Below are positions 45,802 to 58,564 of a stretch of 64,000 nt of DNA, piece after piece. The stretch's first letter is position 1. Every line of letters starts with the position of its first letter. The notes below the pieces were generated by a model. The model searched no databases. It was not told where the DNA came from and worked only from the letters and a program-made list of their open reading frames with translations. The DNA is taken from positions 45,287-109,286 of the forward strand of contig JAGCVH010000094.1 of the NCBI GenBank assembly GCA_017962495.1, written 5' to 3'. This stretch comes from Bacteroidaceae bacterium. GTDB taxonomy: Bacteria > Bacteroidota > Bacteroidia > Bacteroidales > Bacteroidaceae. Position numbers and translations under genes: made by a program.

Positions 45802-45869
45802 TCTTTATTGTTCTCGGGGCAAAGTTAGGAACAAAAAACGTATGTTCCAAACTTTTCAACTAATTTTAA

Positions 45870-47960: not shown

Positions 47961-49844
47961 TCAGCGCAAACCATCAGCTCCGATTTCAACTTTTCGTCGA
48001 ATTAGGCCTTGCCGCACGATATAAAGACCTCGTGGTAACATGTTGAGGTCGTGACCACAATATTGTCCATTCATTCGGAATACCTCGTAAGGACGGTTGT
48101 AGTTGATGTTTGTGGGGATAGTGGTTTCGGCTATGCTGTCGGTGGGTGATATATATTCGTATCCAAGTTTGTTGTCCATCCATGTGATACGCTTTTGAAT
48201 GAAGCGTCGGACGTTCTCGACTTCAGCATCATAGCTACCCCATAGTGTGGGGTTCTGATGAACCTTTTGGTTCATGATAGGCCAGCGCAAGAAGTTGAGA
48301 CGCTGCGACGATTGTAGCATGTCGGAGAGAGAGTCGGTATATGCAATAAGATATTCTTCAGTAAGCCCTCCCTGTCGTGCTTCGTCCCATATTTCAAGCA
48401 TACGTTTCTTGGCTGGGACATTACTAATCACGATTTTGTCGACAAAACTTTTCATATTGCCAGTATAGCTTCCTCCACTGCGGTAGACATAGTCACTCTT
48501 GTTGGTGACAGGGTAGGTGCGTTTATCGTTTTCGAAGGCTAAGTCGAAGTCCCATACGGGTCCTGTAAATATGGTGTCATTCTGCCTTTGCTTGTACATG
48601 AACACACTCCAATAAGTGTCAGTGTTTCCCGACAGCTCACCTACTAGGAAATGGCGTAGGAAAGTATTGAGGTCCAGATATTGGTTCCATTGCCTCTCCA
48701 TCGTATTGAAGTGGTTCTTGATGTAGCTAAACTGTTCGGTTGTGATGCTATCGGAAGAAGGCGATTTGACGGTAACAGGATTACCTTGTGAGGACTTAAA
48801 CCATGAAGTTCCTTCACTGGCATAGGCATCTATCTCAAAGAAATAGCCTCCACTCAGGGCCACTCCACTGTTATCCTGTGGAGTCATTTCTTCGATGTCA
48901 ACGCGCTTCTTATTAACCTCTACTTGGTCGCATAATTGATAGTTACCCTTGTACTCGCCATTCAATAAAACATCTACGGACTGTGCGTAAGGGGTGTAGG
49001 GCATACTCATACGTCGACTAAGTTCAAAAGCCAATAGGTTTCGAAGTAGGGTTTTGTCACCGTAATTGTTGATGAGTGTCCACTTTTTTGCCTTAGCAGG
49101 TGCATCCAAAACTTGTTGTTTTTTGTCGAATTTGATGCGATAAGGACGTTTGGGGAATGTGCGTGAACCATTTCCACGTTCTCGAATGCTACCTGGCTCG
49201 GACAGAATAGAGCCATCTGTACCTATGATAGTTAGTATAGCCTCAATATTGTGCTCTTTGTCATACGGAATCTCACCATTTTGCGTATGGATGGTGACCA
49301 AGGGCAGGTTTGTGGGGCGGTACAGGCGACTATAGTCACCAGCACCTTCATGCCCGTAGAATTCCAATTCGGCAATATTACAGCGTACATCGGATGGCCC
49401 TATATATCGGACATAGCGAAAACCAACCGAGCAGTCAACATCGGAAAACGACATTTCACCTATTGTTCCCCGCTCATCGATAATGTATAGAGGAAGGGCG
49501 TCCATGAAATCCTCTCGGTTAGCCCCTTCAAAGACTCCCAGTATTACGCGACTAGGACCGTCATTACTACTGCGTGGCGACCAACCCACCCGAGTGATGA
49601 CGTGTGGAGTTCCTAAGTCTAAACCAACCCATGTGTAACTGCGATCATAAGAAGCATAGAAGGTACTGAATTTTCCATCAAATGCCATTTCACAAGTATT
49701 TACCGACGTGGACATCGTCCCTGTCGAGTAGTCGATGGCTGGGCTTCCGATGATGGTTCCTGTTAGTTTGCTGTCAGCTTTGGCAGTTGGATGGAAACCT
49801 ATCGTAAGCAATATAACGGAAAGGAGTAATTCTCTTAGTCTCAT
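47961..49844 (-). CDS. CotH kinase family protein with discoidin-like domain and T9SS tail
   Basis: 627 residues; signal peptide to about residue 23. Residues about 25-175 are a F5/8-type C-like domain (SVNTCEMAFDGKFSTFYAS...WVGLDLGTPHVITRVGWSPR). Then comes CotH: RPYRIKFDKKQQ, KKWTLINNYGDKTLLRNLLAFELSRRM, VDVLLNGEYKGNYQLCDQVEV, YFFEIDAY and the acidic GPVWDFDLAFEND, which carries the metal-binding DFD. CotH kinases phosphorylate secreted proteins in spore formers; Bacteroidetes members are secreted and their targets are unknown. The end MLPRGLYIVRQGLIRRKVEI is a degenerate T9SS signal. Its own promoter lies at 49879-49910. Confidence 0.88.
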   Translation of the reverse strand: MRLRELLLSVILLTIGFHPTAKADSKLTGTIIGSPAIDYSTGTMSTSVNTCEMAFDGKFSTFYASYDRSYTWVGLDLGTPHVITRVGWSPRSSNDGPSRVILGVFEGANREDFMDALPLYIIDERGTIGEMSFSDVDCSVGFRYVRYIGPSDVRCNIAELEFYGHEGAGDYSRLYRPTNLPLVTIHTQNGEIPYDKEHNIEAILTIIGTDGSILSEPGSIRERGNGSRTFPKRPYRIKFDKKQQVLDAPAKAKKWTLINNYGDKTLLRNLLAFELSRRMSMPYTPYAQSVDVLLNGEYKGNYQLCDQVEVNKKRVDIEEMTPQDNSGVALSGGYFFEIDAYASEGTSWFKSSQGNPVTVKSPSSDSITTEQFSYIKNHFNTMERQWNQYLDLNTFLRHFLVGELSGNTDTYWSVFMYKQRQNDTIFTGPVWDFDLAFENDKRTYPVTNKSDYVYRSGGSYTGNMKSFVDKIVISNVPAKKRMLEIWDEARQGGLTEEYLIAYTDSLSDMLQSSQRLNFLRWPIMNQKVHQNPTLWGSYDAEVENVRRFIQKRITWMDNKLGYEYISPTDSIAETTIPTNINYNRPYEVFRMNGQYCGHDLNMLPRGLYIVRQGLIRRKVEIGADGLR

Positions 49845-49878: not shown

Positions 49879-49910
49879 CAAAGTTAAGGCTTTATTTGCA
49901 TACGTGCAAA
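49879..49910 (-). promoter_or_regulatory. Promoter of the CotH gene
   Basis: Minus strand TAACTTTG (49879-49886) and TTTG (49907-49910), 20-bp spacer; 34 nt before the start. Confidence 0.85.
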
Positions 49911-51490: not shown

Positions 51491-52654
51491 ATGTTAACTC
51501 AAATCATCAATGGTCGCATTCTGACCCCACAGGGTTGGCTGAAGGATGGTAGCATTATCCTTCGCGACAATAAGATTCTGGAAGTAACAAACTGCGACCT
51601 TGCCATTATCGGTGCCAACATTATTGACGCTAAGGGCATGTCTGTGGTTCCTGGAGGAATTGAGATGCATGTGCATGGTGGTGGTGGTCGTGATTTTCAG
51701 GAGGGAACAGAAGAAGCCTTCCGAGTTGCCGTTGAGGCTCATGCCAAACATGGTACCACAAGCATCTTCCCCACACTGTCAAGTTCTACCGTGCCAATGA
51801 TTGAACAGGCCGTGGCGACCTGTAACAAGTTGATGAAGGAGGAAGATAGCCCTATATTGGGTTTGCACCTCGAGGGACATTATCTCAATCCTTTGAAGGC
51901 TGGTGCGCAGATTCCTGAATGGATAAAGGATCCCGATCCCAACGAATACATCCCCATTGTAGAGAATAGTCCATGTCTGCGTCGTTGGGATGCTGCTCCT
52001 GAGTTGCCCGGTGCCATTCAATTTGGTAAATTCTGTGCTGAAAAGGGCATCCTGCCAAGTATTGCCCACACGCATGCTGAGTTCAGTGATGTAAAGACGG
52101 CATTTGAGGCAGGCTTTACTCATGTTACCCACTTCTACAATGCAATGCCTGGTTTCCATAACAAGCAAGGGTACAAGTACGAGGGAACTGTCGAAAGTGT
52201 TTACCTTATTGACGACATGACTATCGAGTGTGTGGCAGACGGCATTCATGTGCCTCCTACGATTTTGCGCATGGCTTATAAGATTAAGGGTGTTGAGCGT
52301 ATGGCACTTATCACTGACGCATTGGCTGTTGCAGCTGCTCCTGCCGATGCTGTCGCCTTCGATCCTCGTGTCATTGTTGAGGACGGTGTTGCCAAGTTGA
52401 GTGATCGTTCGGCTTTGGCAGGTTCCATTGCTACAACCGATCGCCTGATACGTGTGGCTGTACAGCAGGCCGAGATTCCTCTAGAGGATGCCGTTCGTAT
52501 GGTTAGCGAGACTCCGTCGCTCATCATGAAGGTCAATGATCGTAAGGGCACCCTACAGCGTGGAAAGGATGCCGATGTTATGATTTTGGACGACAAACTC
52601 GACATCCGTTGTATCTGGCAAATGGGTAAGATAATTGAAAATACACTGTTTTAA
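51491..52654 (+). CDS. nagA: N-acetylglucosamine-6-phosphate deacetylase
   Basis: 387 residues, amidohydrolase fold. PGGIEMHVHGGGGRDFQEGT carries the HxH metal motif; LGLHLEGHYLNPLKAGAQ the metal Glu; SIAHTHAEFSD and THVTHFYNAMPGFHNKQ further His ligands; ITDALAVAA the catalytic Asp. It converts GlcNAc-6-P to glucosamine-6-P, the substrate of NagB (54394-55185) or GlmM. It is co-directional with glmM, 15 bp apart. No terminator follows; the next signals belong to the trpB2 leader. Confidence 0.94.
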   Translation: MLTQIINGRILTPQGWLKDGSIILRDNKILEVTNCDLAIIGANIIDAKGMSVVPGGIEMHVHGGGGRDFQEGTEEAFRVAVEAHAKHGTTSIFPTLSSSTVPMIEQAVATCNKLMKEEDSPILGLHLEGHYLNPLKAGAQIPEWIKDPDPNEYIPIVENSPCLRRWDAAPELPGAIQFGKFCAEKGILPSIAHTHAEFSDVKTAFEAGFTHVTHFYNAMPGFHNKQGYKYEGTVESVYLIDDMTIECVADGIHVPPTILRMAYKIKGVERMALITDALAVAAAPADAVAFDPRVIVEDGVAKLSDRSALAGSIATTDRLIRVAVQQAEIPLEDAVRMVSETPSLIMKVNDRKGTLQRGKDADVMILDDKLDIRCIWQMGKIIENTLF

Positions 52655-52695
52655 AAGCCTATTTTTAAATTAGTTATAAAAAATTTGCCCAAAAG

Positions 52696-52727
52696 TTTGA
52701 TGGAATAAAAGATAATGCATAACTTTG
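52696..52727 (+). promoter_or_regulatory. Promoter of the trpB2 leader transcript
   Basis: TTTG (52696-52699), 20 bp, TAACTTTG (52720-52727). The start of transcription should fall near 52734, about 25 nt before the leader-peptide ATG and 210 nt before trpB2. Confidence 0.87.
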
Positions 52728-52758
52728 CTGTCGAATTGAAACAAATAGAGTTACTAAT

Positions 52759-52812
52759 ATGAGAAATGTTAACTTTTGGTGGTGGCAAAACTCGGGGTTC
52801 AAAGAATCGTGA
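52759..52812 (+). CDS. Tryptophan-rich leader peptide of trpB2 (candidate attenuator)
   Basis: A 17-codon ORF, MRNVNFWWWQNSGFKES, with three consecutive TGG codons at 52777-52785, lying between a consensus promoter and an intrinsic terminator, all upstream of a tryptophan synthase beta gene. This is the arrangement of ribosome-mediated trp attenuation. Possible alternative pairs: GTGGC at the last Trp codon (52782-52786) with GCCGC (52820-52824), and AGCC (52819-52822) with GGCT in the terminator's 5' arm (52855-52858). A ribosome stalled at the Trp codons could free the latter to act as antiterminator. These pairings are short and unproven; the peptide itself is clear. Confidence 0.78.
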   Translation: MRNVNFWWWQNSGFKES

Positions 52813-52850
52813 GAAGATAGCCGCATACCCATAAGTAAGCATAAAAGATA

Positions 52851-52886
52851 AAGAGGCTTGTCATTCTTACGACAAGCCTCTTTTTT
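52851..52886 (+). terminator. Leader terminator upstream of trpB2
   Basis: A perfect 12-bp stem AAGAGGCTTGTC/GACAAGCCTCTT with an 8-nt loop, then a run of T. It stands between the Trp leader peptide and trpB2, with no second promoter seen before trpB2, so trpB2 expression would need readthrough. Confidence 0.9.
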
Positions 52887-52944
52887 AATGTTTGACTGAA
52901 GAAATATAAAGATAATAATTGTTTAATTCTAAAAATTAGTTGCT

Positions 52945-54312
52945 ATGAAAGAGAGACAGAAAAGGTTTTTCTTGCCAGAAAGCGAGATTCCAACACAGTG
53001 GTACAACATCCAGGCAGACATGGTGAACAAACCTCTTCCACCACTTCATCCTGCCACGAAAGAGCCTTTGAAGGCCGAGGATCTTTTCCCCATCTTTGCC
53101 GAAGAATTGGCACGACAGGAAATGAACCAAACGGATGCGTGGATTGATATCCCCGAGGAAGTTCGTGACATGTACAAGTTCTACCGTTCTACACCACTCG
53201 TTCGTGCTTATGGATTAGAGAAGGCACTTGGTACACCTGCCCATATCTATTTCAAGAATGAAAGCGTAAGTCCTGTGGGTAGTCACAAACTTAATTCAGC
53301 ATTGCCACAGGCATACTACAACAAGAAGCAGGGTGTGACCAATATCACCACAGAGACGGGTGCAGGACAGTGGGGTGCAGCTCTCTCGTATGCTGCTAAA
53401 GTGTTTGGACTGGAATGTGCTGTCTATCAAGTGAAAATCAGTTACAACCAGAAACCTTATCGCCGTAGCATTATGCAGACTTTCGGCGCAACCGTAGAAG
53501 CATCGCCCTCTATGTCAACCCGTGCAGGTAAGGATATCATCACACGTGACCCCATGAATCAAGGTTCGTTGGGTACAGCTATTAGTGAGGCCATTGAGTT
53601 GGCAATGTCAACGCCCAACTGCAAGTATACGCTGGGCTCTGTTCTGAATCATGTTGCCCTGCATCAGAGTGTGATTGGATTGGAAGCCGAGAAACAGATG
53701 GCCATGGCTGGTGAGTATCCTGATATCGTGATTGCTTGCTTTGGCGGTGGTTCGAACTTCGGTGGTGTGGCATTCCCCTTCATGCGTCACAACATTCTGG
53801 ATGGAAAGAATACACAGTTCATTGCCGCAGAACCTGCTTCGTGTCCTAAGCTCACTCGTGGCGTATTCCAGTACGATTTCGGAGATGAGGCAGGATATAC
53901 GCCATTGCTGCCCATGTTCACCCTTGGTCACAACTTTATGCCAGCCAACATTCATGCAGGTGGCCTTCGCTATCATGGGGCAGGTGTCATCGTTAGCCAG
54001 TTGTTGAAGGATGGACTGATGACAGCTGTCGATATTCCTCAGTTGGAAACCTTCGAGGCTGGAACCTTGTTTGCTCGTACCGAGGGTATCATCCCTGCTC
54101 CAGAGTCAAGCCACGCTATTGCCGCCACTATTCGCGAAGCATTGAAGTGTAAGGAAACAGGTGAGGAGAAAGTAATACTATTCAACCTCTCGGGTCATGG
54201 ATTGATAGACATGAGTGCCTATGACCAGTATTTCTCTGGTAACCTGCAAAACTATGAGATTACCGACGAGCAAGTGGCCGAGAACATCTCTAAACTTGAG
54301 AAAGTGATTTAA
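52945..54312 (+). CDS. trpB2: Tryptophan synthase beta-like enzyme, TrpB2 type
   Basis: 455 residues, longer than TrpB1 (about 400) and with the TrpB2 N-terminal extension (FLPESEIPTQWYNIQADM). RPTPLVRA-like RSTPLVRAYGLEKALG is followed by the PLP Lys in SVSPVG SHKLNSALPQAYYNK, TETGAGQWGAALS, the phosphate loop CFGGGSNFGG, and the C-terminal NLSGHGLIDMS with the PLP-N1 Ser/Gly region. It makes tryptophan from indole and serine (or phosphoserine in some relatives). No trpA or other trp gene is adjacent, typical for stand-alone trpB2. The Trp-codon leader upstream is independent support for a real role in tryptophan supply. Confidence 0.92.
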   Translation: MKERQKRFFLPESEIPTQWYNIQADMVNKPLPPLHPATKEPLKAEDLFPIFAEELARQEMNQTDAWIDIPEEVRDMYKFYRSTPLVRAYGLEKALGTPAHIYFKNESVSPVGSHKLNSALPQAYYNKKQGVTNITTETGAGQWGAALSYAAKVFGLECAVYQVKISYNQKPYRRSIMQTFGATVEASPSMSTRAGKDIITRDPMNQGSLGTAISEAIELAMSTPNCKYTLGSVLNHVALHQSVIGLEAEKQMAMAGEYPDIVIACFGGGSNFGGVAFPFMRHNILDGKNTQFIAAEPASCPKLTRGVFQYDFGDEAGYTPLLPMFTLGHNFMPANIHAGGLRYHGAGVIVSQLLKDGLMTAVDIPQLETFEAGTLFARTEGIIPAPESSHAIAATIREALKCKETGEEKVILFNLSGHGLIDMSAYDQYFSGNLQNYEITDEQVAENISKLEKVI

Positions 54313-54393: not shown

Positions 54394-55185
54394 TTATAGA
54401 TTATCCTTTTCAATGTCCTTGAAGTATTTGTAGGTACCGTGCTTCAATTCGTCGGTGGCAGCCTCATCGCATACGATGATGGCATGGGGATGCATTTGCA
54501 GGGCACTGATTGTCCACTCTTGACTGACCGCACATTCGATAGCATGTTGCAGGGCGCGAGCCTTTCCGTGACCGTTGCAGACGATGAGTACTTCCTTGGC
54601 GTCCATAACGGTGCCAACGCCAACAGTCAGAGCCGTCTTGGGTACCTTGTTCACATCGTTGTCGAAGAATCGACTGTTGGCAATGATGGTGTCGGTGGTA
54701 AGGCTTTTCACACGAGTGCGGCTTTGCAGAGAACTGAAAGGTTCGTTGAAAGCGATGTGTCCATCGGGACCAATGCCTCCCATAAAGAGGTCGATACCGC
54801 CAGCGTCTTTGATAGCTTTTTCGTAGGCAGCACATTCGGCAACCAAGTCTGGAGCATTACCATTAAGGATGTGCACATTTTCTTTCTTTATGTCGATGTG
54901 AGAGAAAAAGTTCGTCCACATAAAGCTATGATAGCTTTCGGGATGTTCTTCGGGCAGACCCACATATTCATCCATATTGAAAGTGATGACATTCTTGAAC
55001 GAAACCTTGCCAGCTTTGTTCAGTTCGATGAGGTGTTTATACAATCCCAAAGGAGAAGAACCAGTGGGGCATCCCAGTTTGAAAGGTTTTTCAGCAGTGG
55101 GTTTTGCTTCGTTGATACGGGCAGCAACATATTCTGCAGCCCAGCGTGACAACTCTTTGTAGTCAGGTTCAATGATTACTCTCAT
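54394..55185 (-). CDS. nagB: Glucosamine-6-phosphate deaminase
   Basis: 263 residues. Motifs: [17 protein letters not shown] (phosphate loop), [18 protein letters not shown] (catalytic Asp), [18 protein letters not shown] (His/Glu relay) and [20 protein letters not shown]. It converts glucosamine-6-P to fructose-6-P and ammonia, the last step of amino-sugar use after NagA. It is near nagA but on the other strand and separated by trpB2. Confidence 0.95.
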
Positions 55186-56860: not shown

Positions 56861-58516
56861 CTAGTTTACTCCCTGTTTACTTGTCCCCTCATTGTTCGTG
56901 TCCTTACGTTTCGTGGCTTTCAGGTTACCGAAGAAATAGTAATACGGATAGAACCCTTTCCATTTCTTAAAAAGTTCGTGAGCATGCTCGGCACGTGTCT
57001 CGTGACTACCCATGAAGGGCTTCGTTTCGTTCAGCATGGCCAGTAGTCTTGCCTGATTATATTCTAGTCCAGGAAATGCTTTCAGTATTTCGGGATATTT
57101 GTTCGACATAAGTAGTAGTCCCTCGGCGATGGATGGGGGAGGGGTGCTCCCCTGTAAGGGTTGACAGCGAGCGATGAACTGTGGCATCGTCTTAGTGTAG
57201 AGGTGCACCATCAGACTGTTCCACAAAGCATTGACACTTCGCCCCTCATTCAGCGCGATGTTGTAACCCATGAATGTGGGTTGTGTGAATAGGTTCTCAA
57301 AGTTGTCATGCACGGGTTCCGTGAGTCGCATATGATGGAATTCGGGATCGTTGTCTATCAGACTTAGATTGCCCACCATGGGACGATATTTTTCAACGAA
57401 GTCGCCTTCAAATGGCACATGCTCCAGAATGCGAAGGTACTTGTTAGCTACTCTCCATTCGCCTTTGAGTATGGCGCCGCGTGTTAACAACTTCAGTGAG
57501 CGCAAGGTAGGTCCGTTCATTGTCATGTGCTCCATAGCATGGTGGATGGCTGTCTGTACCAGTCCTGCATACAAGTCACAATCCATGACATAGTAGTTGG
57601 CAGCATCGTTCGCGTTCTTGTTAAATCCATGTATGTAAGGCACGTCATAATCCATGCGAATGTCAAACAGGCGTGAAGCCTGTTCCTCCGATTGCGTCAG
57701 GGCGATAGCGTAGTAAGCCGCAATTGGTCGATACGACAGGTCGGCATTCTTTCGTGCCGTTTCAGCCATTCCTCGCCAGTTCTGTTCCATCATCTGGCAC
57801 TGCATACGCGTCGTTACGCGCACATAAGGACGCATCCAGTGGCTCACGCCCATGGGCAGAGCAACCGTCAATGCGGCCATTGCCAGTCCTGCAAGATGTT
57901 GCTTGGTGCTTTCGTTCTTGTCAGGAAGGAATGGACTCGGGAATTTATGGCTATGACTGAATGATCGTATTATCAACGCCAATGTCAACAATACAACGAG
58001 TGCCAACAAAGGCACACCCATAATCAAACCAGTTTCTGCTTCATAGAATAAATCGTAACCGATGTAGGCAAGGAAAAGGAGATAGGCCATAGCTGGGACG
58101 AACTGGAGTAATTTCCACCATCCCTTTAACCTCAGGCAGTAACCCGTCAGCCACGTACACTTTGCAACGAGCAAGGCCATCAGTGCACCACCTAATACTG
58201 GCCAGCGGTATGTGGTCAACAACATGCGTCCAGCACGGCAAAGCATCTCCCATGGTCGCCCGTCCATGAACCGCATTAAAACATCGTTTGGAGACCAAAA
58301 AGAGTTCTCTCGGGCAATACGCATTGTGTCGCCCATCCACAGCCAAGCCCAGAGCCACACCAGTACGAAAAAGAAAATAATTACAGAAAGATGAAGTCGT
58401 TTCTTTTTCGTCTTCTGTCCGTCGCTCTTCACCTGTGAGGCTTTAACGTTCGTCGCTACTTGCCCTGCAGTCTGGCTTTTATGATCAGCCTTGTATTGCT
58501 TTCTTTGTTTAGCCAT
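56861..58516 (-). CDS. DUF6057-type polytopic membrane protein
   Basis: 551 residues. A Lys/Gln-rich cytosolic front (to about 40) is followed by membrane helices at about 43-62 (LSVIIFFFVLVWLWAWLWM), 98-117, 135-153 (LLQFVPAMAYLLFLAYIGY), 166-186 (IMGVPLLALVVLLTLALII) and 210-225. A long soluble helical region with TPR-like character follows (KNADLSYRPIAAYYAIAL; KLLTRGAILKGEWRVANKYL), matching the Bacteroidales DUF6057 family of unknown function. It is immediately upstream of the CxxCH propeller lipoprotein (27-bp gap) and shares its promoter at 58533-58564. Confidence 0.78.
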   Translation of the reverse strand: MAKQRKQYKADHKSQTAGQVATNVKASQVKSDGQKTKKKRLHLSVIIFFFVLVWLWAWLWMGDTMRIARENSFWSPNDVLMRFMDGRPWEMLCRAGRMLLTTYRWPVLGGALMALLVAKCTWLTGYCLRLKGWWKLLQFVPAMAYLLFLAYIGYDLFYEAETGLIMGVPLLALVVLLTLALIIRSFSHSHKFPSPFLPDKNESTKQHLAGLAMAALTVALPMGVSHWMRPYVRVTTRMQCQMMEQNWRGMAETARKNADLSYRPIAAYYAIALTQSEEQASRLFDIRMDYDVPYIHGFNKNANDAANYYVMDCDLYAGLVQTAIHHAMEHMTMNGPTLRSLKLLTRGAILKGEWRVANKYLRILEHVPFEGDFVEKYRPMVGNLSLIDNDPEFHHMRLTEPVHDNFENLFTQPTFMGYNIALNEGRSVNALWNSLMVHLYTKTMPQFIARCQPLQGSTPPPSIAEGLLLMSNKYPEILKAFPGLEYNQARLLAMLNETKPFMGSHETRAEHAHELFKKWKGFYPYYYFFGNLKATKRKDTNNEGTSKQGVN

Positions 58517-58532
58517 TACTCTATTTTCCCGA

Positions 58533-58564
58533 CAAAAGTACTTTATTTACTTTAGATAAGCAAA
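58533..58564 (-). promoter_or_regulatory. Promoter of the DUF6057-propeller operon
   Basis: Minus strand TACTTTTG (58533-58540) and TTTG (58561-58564), 20-bp spacer; 16 nt before the start. Confidence 0.82.

Follow-up and report, generated by a model that had tools for sequence, protein, structure and literature searches.

A predicted leader-peptide tryptophan attenuator ahead of a stand-alone trpB2 gene in a Bacteroidaceae genome, with counterparts ahead of canonical trp genes

The window analyzed here, a stretch of 64,000 nucleotides from contig JAGCVH010000094.1 of a Bacteroidaceae bacterium (assembly GCA_017962495.1), carries a trpB2 gene together with the following upstream features.

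52696..52727, + strand: promoter of the Bacteroidetes type, with TTTG at 52696-52699, 20 nt, and TAACTTTG at 52720-52727
52759..52812, + strand: leader peptide ORF, MRNVNFWWWQNSGFKES, 17 residues, with Trp codons at 52777-52785 and a TGA stop at 52810-52812
52782..52824, + strand: protector (1:2) hairpin, pairing 52791-52793 with 52811-52813 and 52796-52799 with 52805-52808, and, as its outer part, 52782-52786 (Trp codons) with 52820-52824
52807..52815, + strand: segment 2, the 5' strand of the antiterminator as read from alignments, overlapping the leader stop codon
52820..52822, + strand: GCC, an extension of the antiterminator through its pairing with GGC (52855-52857, terminator 5' arm)
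52850..52886, + strand: intrinsic terminator, a stem of 13 pairs at 52850-52883 followed by a T-run
52864..52872, + strand: segment 3, the 3' strand of the antiterminator, formed by the terminator loop and the first bases of its 3' arm
52945..54312, + strand: trpB2, the putatively regulated gene, encoding a TrpB-like PLP enzyme of 455 aa (NF009057, TIGR01415)

The promoter, the 17-residue leader with three consecutive Trp codons, the terminator with its T-run, and trpB2 had been described in an earlier note on this DNA, and all of them lie where that note placed them. The arrangement TTTG-20-TAACTTTG at 52696-52727, which we take to be the Bacteroidetes promoter consensus, is conserved across 24 aligned leader loci, that of the window among them. 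A pattern search of the window for TTTG-20-TANNTTTG returned four exact matches versus 0.16 expected; the three others are on the minus strand (45820-45851, 49879-49910, and 58533-58564), where the last two immediately precede the ORFs 47961-49844 and 56861-58516. A sigma-70 promoter was considered and discarded, with a single site, at 52892, versus 1.6 in shuffles, and the TTTG/TANNTTTG pattern fits instead. The motif TGGTGGTGG was also rejected as evidence on its own, since its six matches in the window make it uninformative by itself; the evidence comes from conserved homologs.

The product of trpB2 passes the cut-offs of both protein models that name it (NF009057, 708.4 versus a cut-off of 366; TIGR01415, 596.3 versus 518.85), and its best relatives of solved structure are 6hul, named as a beta chain 1, and 4qys and 6hte, named as beta chain 2. 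The gene 3' of trpB2 (54394-55185) is on the opposite strand, which makes a single-gene transcript probable for trpB2. The 132-nt leader RNA has a folding energy of −48.0 kcal/mol (z = −7.6), a stability equaled by 0 of 200 shuffles, and the 1:2 hairpin is present in its minimum free energy structure. A terminator scan of 52400-53100 found two sites, corresponding to one stem reported once per strand, versus 0.7 in shuffles of the 701 bases. The absence of another terminator-like stem from this interval would suit an explanation in which 52850-52883 merely terminates the upstream same-strand gene (51491-52654) and the short ORF occurs by chance. We give this explanation practically no credence, as it is contradicted by conservation: relatives retain promoter, ORF, segment 2, and terminator as a set, and this set recurs at another site of the same genome, in front of trpB.

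Very probably, this element controls trpB2 through ribosome-mediated transcription attenuation, with charged tRNA-Trp as the signal that is read. Given the anatomy, conservation, covariation, and genomic company described here, we infer ribosome stalling and a response to tryptophan as follows. With enough tryptophan, the ribosome would pass the three Trp codons, reach the stop codon at 52810-52812, and cover segment 2 (52807-52815), so that the terminator (52850-52883) would form and transcription would end before trpB2. Scarcity of tryptophan would instead stall the ribosome at the Trp codons, where it would cover segment 1 and leave segment 2 free to pair with 52864-52872, helped by the pairing of 52820-52822 with 52855-52857; once this antiterminator had formed, the terminator would come too late and trpB2 would be transcribed. 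Without translation, the 1:2 hairpin would form and termination would be the default.

This logic is that of enteric trpL, in which tandem Trp codons in segment 1, a 2:3 antiterminator, and a 3:4 terminator operate with termination as the default. Unlike trpL, the window leader has three Trp codons and eight more codons before its stop, and the core of its segment 2 pairs with the loop and the start of the 3' arm of the terminator, the 5' arm being engaged by the GCC alone. The earlier note had proposed that two short pairings could give the classical switch. Both pairings are real, but the main antiterminator, 52807-52815 with 52864-52872, had been missed, and the two prove to be secondary. 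The first (52782-52786 with 52820-52824), which is kept in 99.0% of cells across 21 distinct leaders, is the outer part of the 1:2 hairpin; the second (52819-52822 with 52855-52858) is upheld for three of its four pairs, those made by the GCC, with 100% of cells paired in the 21 distinct sequences, the fourth pair being left out of the count.

Relatives of TrpB2 were collected from the best 80 named loci of a larger set, from a search of the genus, in which 121 of 139 genomes have a TrpB2 at an E value of 1e-100 or better, and from 60 further upstream stretches. The motif TGGTGGTGG lies within 330 nt of the gene in 26 of the 170 regions upstream of trpB2 relatives, a set in which at least 9 pairs of regions represent one locus drawn from two collections and 20 regions come from a distant type of TrpB2. 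We aligned 22 trpB2 leaders, 21 of them distinct (alignment A1), and the four segments were read from this alignment. The comparison did not turn up the loss of Trp codons or terminator that would have contradicted the earlier note: three consecutive tryptophans and a terminator hairpin are present in 22 of 22 leaders, and at least five T among the next nine bases in 21 of 22, L012 having only four T in nine bases. The leader peptides share a core of approximately A-N-F-W-W-W-Q-x-S-[R/G]-F-x-K-S. Promoter and terminator are conserved along with the peptides, and so is a TCGTGAG segment. Taken together, the Trp codons, terminator, antiterminator, and protector hairpin are kept in relatives, which supports a leader-peptide tryptophan attenuator ahead of trpB2.

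The residues that follow the three tryptophans (Q.S[RG]F..KS) are conserved as well, which would also be compatible with a TnaC-like arrest peptide, in which free tryptophan is sensed in the ribosome tunnel and the gene is on when tryptophan is plentiful. However, the codons concerned coincide with RNA segments 1 and 2, and their conservation is thus explained by RNA pairing; L117 lacks several of these residues while retaining the three tryptophans, and runs of Trp codons before biosynthetic genes suit the sensing of starvation. We therefore regard an arrest peptide as highly improbable and retain the attenuator that reads charged tRNA-Trp.

In A1, the terminator (3:4) is paired in 93.2% of cells, and 6 of its 14 pairs are changed on both sides among the 21 distinct leaders. 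The protector (1:2) is paired in 91.5% of cells, with one-sided changes only; of the 21 leaders, 20 lack its innermost pair. The antiterminator (2:3), including 52820-52822/52855-52857, is paired in 98.8% of cells, with one double change, in L134. A wider alignment, A3, comprises 101 matches (99 distinct leaders) and was fitted to the 1:2 and 3:4 helices, not to the antiterminator. In its 99 distinct leaders, the nine-pair core of the antiterminator is paired in 91.1% of cells, versus 25 to 47% for slid controls, and contains 27 doubly changed cells versus 13.0 in shuffles, with 0 of 500 shuffles as high, an excess of the kind that kinship among sequences can also give without structure. This core does not surpass shuffles in its 4 doubly changed pairs or its 12 further pair types, values reached by 79 and 424 of 500 shuffles, respectively, and two antiterminator pairs (A3 columns 110/216 and 111/211) fail in 28 and 35 of the 99 leaders. 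The 1:2 and 3:4 helices together have 191 doubly changed cells versus 49.0 in shuffles, in an alignment fitted to these very helices.

Every row of A3 encodes a run of Trp codons (WWW in 89, WW in 7, and WxW in 5 of 101), the underlying model having been built from WWW leaders. Such runs argue against direct sensing of tryptophan or tRNA by the RNA, as by a riboswitch or a T-box-like element, with the ORF being incidental, and so does the Rfam scan of the window, whose only match at gathering scores is a tRNA; the high degree of structure of the leader RNA would fit such a sensor. Direct sensing by the RNA thus appears scarcely plausible to us, and we keep to attenuation through translation of the leader peptide.

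The energetics of the 22 leaders were evaluated at the decision point, the moment when the 3' strand of the antiterminator has just been made, on the assumption that a ribosome hides 15 nt from its A-site codon on. Whichever of the three Trp codons the ribosome occupies, the antiterminator has a predicted probability of 0.85 to 0.98. For a ribosome at the stop codon, this probability does not exceed 0.24, and the terminator has 0.85 to 1.00. The stop codon overlaps segment 2 in 13 of 22 leaders, the window's included, and lies earlier in the rest; a ribosome at the stop fully covers the antiterminator core in 20 of 22 leaders and leaves free two of the nine pairs in L014 and five in L117, a leader that ends early. 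In the full-length RNA without a ribosome, the 1:2 hairpin reaches 0.59 to 1.00 and the terminator 0.85 to 1.00. With stalled ribosomes, the terminator of the full-length RNA surpasses the antiterminator in stability in 64 of 66 cases, the two exceptions belonging to L117; readthrough must therefore be a matter of timing. Of the 22 leaders, 5 (L011, L012, L084, L134, and L150) favor the antiterminator over the 1:2 hairpin at the decision point even when no ribosome is present.

A covariance model built from A1 (R1) was run on the 139 genomes of the genus and matched in 91 of them at an E value of 0.1 or better, some of these matches being antisense or chance. Assignments to genes are based on the 88 listed hits at an E value of 1.3e-8 or better together with one in G078 (E = 1.9e-4). 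In this set, the leader stands ahead of canonical trpB in 61 of 100 trpB hits and 57 of 96 genomes, G078 and the window's genome among them, ahead of 21 of the 75 trpB2 genes of the close type, and ahead of 1 of the 48 of the distant type; the 54 close-type genes without an assigned leader include that of G062, for which there is no upstream DNA. Six other strong hits comprise four ahead of genes that are cut by a contig end and start like trpB, as judged by eye, one orphan in G110 with no gene on its strand, and one, L227 (G120:C46), with an altered trp order in which the leader is followed by trpD-, trpF-, and trpA-like ORFs and trpB. Altogether, 87 of the 88 strong hits are ahead of trpB, trpB2, or trpD. 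Hits weaker than 1.3e-8 are mostly chance: among five that were fetched (L257-L261), only L261, the hit in G078, is a trp leader, and L257-L260 have no Trp leader and were taken as chance. Both trpB and trpB2 carry a leader in 13 genomes of the genus. The presence of the leader on trpB2 shows no relation to loss of the trp operon, trpB being found in 13 of 21 genomes with the leader and in 35 of 54 without.

Three loci of the genus call for separate mention. L231 (G117:C83), the sole strong leader hit on the second type of TrpB2 (51 to 57% identical), encodes MNNMIGKYWWWRYLGFKRS and has its own matching segment 2 and terminator loop. The orphan of G110 (L240, C22:26356-26468, minus strand) is a tryptophan leader, MLHTSNYWWWRDSGFKKS, approximately 8 kb from trpB on the same contig, and is followed by a hairpin that, by eye, differs in sequence; it looks like a stray copy. 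G076 has four copies of trpB, on contigs C22, C29, C30, and C64, each with its own attenuator, which reflects either mixed strains or a true amplification.

In the window's own genome, the second R1 hit (G000:C102:1540-1671) encodes MKQTTNLWWWRSSGFKKS and lies upstream of trpB, so that this assembly, 85% complete, has at least two such leaders. The earlier note had called trpB2 isolated; it is indeed a lone gene, but not the only tryptophan locus of the genome, since trpB was found, as was trpA on contig C81, preceded by ORFs that resemble trpC and trpF by eye. As the genome's own trp operon has the same kind of switch, the trp operon and trpB2 would form a regulon of two members. A tryptophanase search of this genome gave one PF01212 match above the cut-off, in a frame of 371 aa.

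In a sample of the family, R1 matches at an E value of 1e-5 or better in 95 of 161 genomes and 25 of 30 genera. Downstream genes were identified for 45 distinct hits, namely, the 25 loci L262-L286 and 22 hits in 20 stretches picked partly for genomes with two hits, two of the hits having been seen twice. They are trpB in 31 cases, trpD in 5, and trpB2 in 7; the two without a trp gene downstream, L315 and L317, were taken as chance. Outside the genus, the element precedes trpB2 in g19 (one case), g21 (four), and g24 (two), with the leaders MNGISNNVWWQSSRF and MNGISNNVWWQSSRS in the two of the four g21 cases that were read and MKKINSFFWWWRSLQLN and MKQYNSFFWWWQPLQLK in g24. At L307 (G221) and L308 (G204), both of genus g22, trpB and trpD several kilobases on carry near-identical leader peptides. 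At the level of the order, 29 loci, one of them from the same family, gave 20 trpB, 2 trpD, and 7 trpE, and 0 of these 29 had trpB2 downstream of the element; the seven trpE proteins match TIGR00564 (TrpE) best, below its curated cut-off.

The view that attenuation is unusual in Bacteroidales, put forward in the earlier note, does not hold: the element also fronts trpB in the same genome, R1 matches in 68 of 247 genomes sampled across the order, and Rfam has a family, RF01692 (Bacteroid-trp), which shares the phylum, a leader with Trp codons, a hairpin over these codons, a TCGTRAG-like segment, and the terminator start AGGCTTGTC. RF01692 aligns with the window element over its full length (model positions 1-131) at the Trp leader, scoring 36.8 bits versus a cut-off of 49; the element is thus not counted as a formal member, and RF01692 is absent from the gathering-score Rfam scan of the window. 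Unlike the element described here, the RF01692 model stops within the terminator's 5' arm and thus includes neither terminator nor antiterminator. It passes its cut-off in only 1 of the 139 genomes of the genus and reaches an E value of 0.01 in 18, whereas strong, trp-linked R1 hits occur in many more. The covariance model for the Trp_leader of proteobacteria, presumably RF00513, gave no match up to an E value of 5 in three loci. Bacteroid-trp is listed for Bacteroidetes by Weinberg et al. 2010 (PMC2864571), and the portion of that article available to us says nothing on trpB2. Our search of open-licence literature returned papers on the TrpB2 enzyme and its evolution and none on control of trpB2 by attenuation. 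Attenuation being known in Bacteroidales, its attachment to trpB2 seems to be the new part.

The NCBIfam models name the product only as a TrpB-like PLP enzyme, and the presence of an attenuator on its gene in four genera hints at its job. The attenuator suggests that TrpB2 serves tryptophan supply, an inference that it strengthens, short of proving it, and makes the role of TrpB2 testable. As to enzyme function here, TrpB2 probably makes tryptophan from indole. The generic protein name would also fit an enzyme that is switched as proposed and is not a tryptophan synthase in vivo, e.g., a serine deaminase useful at low tryptophan. We judge this unlikely, given that 87 of 88 strong hits in the genus are on tryptophan genes and given the behavior of BT_RS23500, a Bacteroides homolog that is 59% identical to the TrpB2 of Thermotoga: according to the part of the source available to us, it improved the growth of an E. 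coli trpA mutant solely in the company of a wild type, which its authors read as use of secreted indole (PMC11535334).

With regard to origin, a quick tree of trpB2 (82 rows, 23 with the leader) requires 13 changes of the leader label versus 20.4 in shuffles, at least nine of which are forced by well-supported branches, and gains and losses of the leader are thus frequent. A second tree, built from 88 leaders over 137 columns and with 49 of 85 inner branches open, requires 6 changes between trpB2 and operon leaders versus 20.4 when shuffled, and well-supported branches force just one. Most trpB2 leaders are close neighbors on this second tree; the leaders of G009 and G079 adjoin L178 of G046 (SH-aLRT 89), which was ungrouped in the change count and recognized afterwards as a trpB leader, and that of G117 stands elsewhere on a long branch. 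We read the trees as one older acquisition on trpB2 followed by many losses and by perhaps a few later copyings. The element is patchy on trpB2 in four genera of one family, where it was probably copied more than once. We lean slightly toward the view that the attenuator of the trp operon is a transferable cassette, copied several times independently onto trpB2 within one Bacteroidales family; tryptophan starvation would then induce the trp operon and, along with it, a free-standing tryptophan synthase that uses indole. If true, nature would thereby have supplied genetic evidence that the TrpB2 of bacteria acts in tryptophan supply, perhaps through salvage of indole from the community. Of note, one locus in these comparisons, L028 (JAMPEL010000056.1), is on a contig titled Roseburia and its TrpB2 falls among those of Bacteroidales in the trpB2 tree; it is probably a mislabelled MAG.
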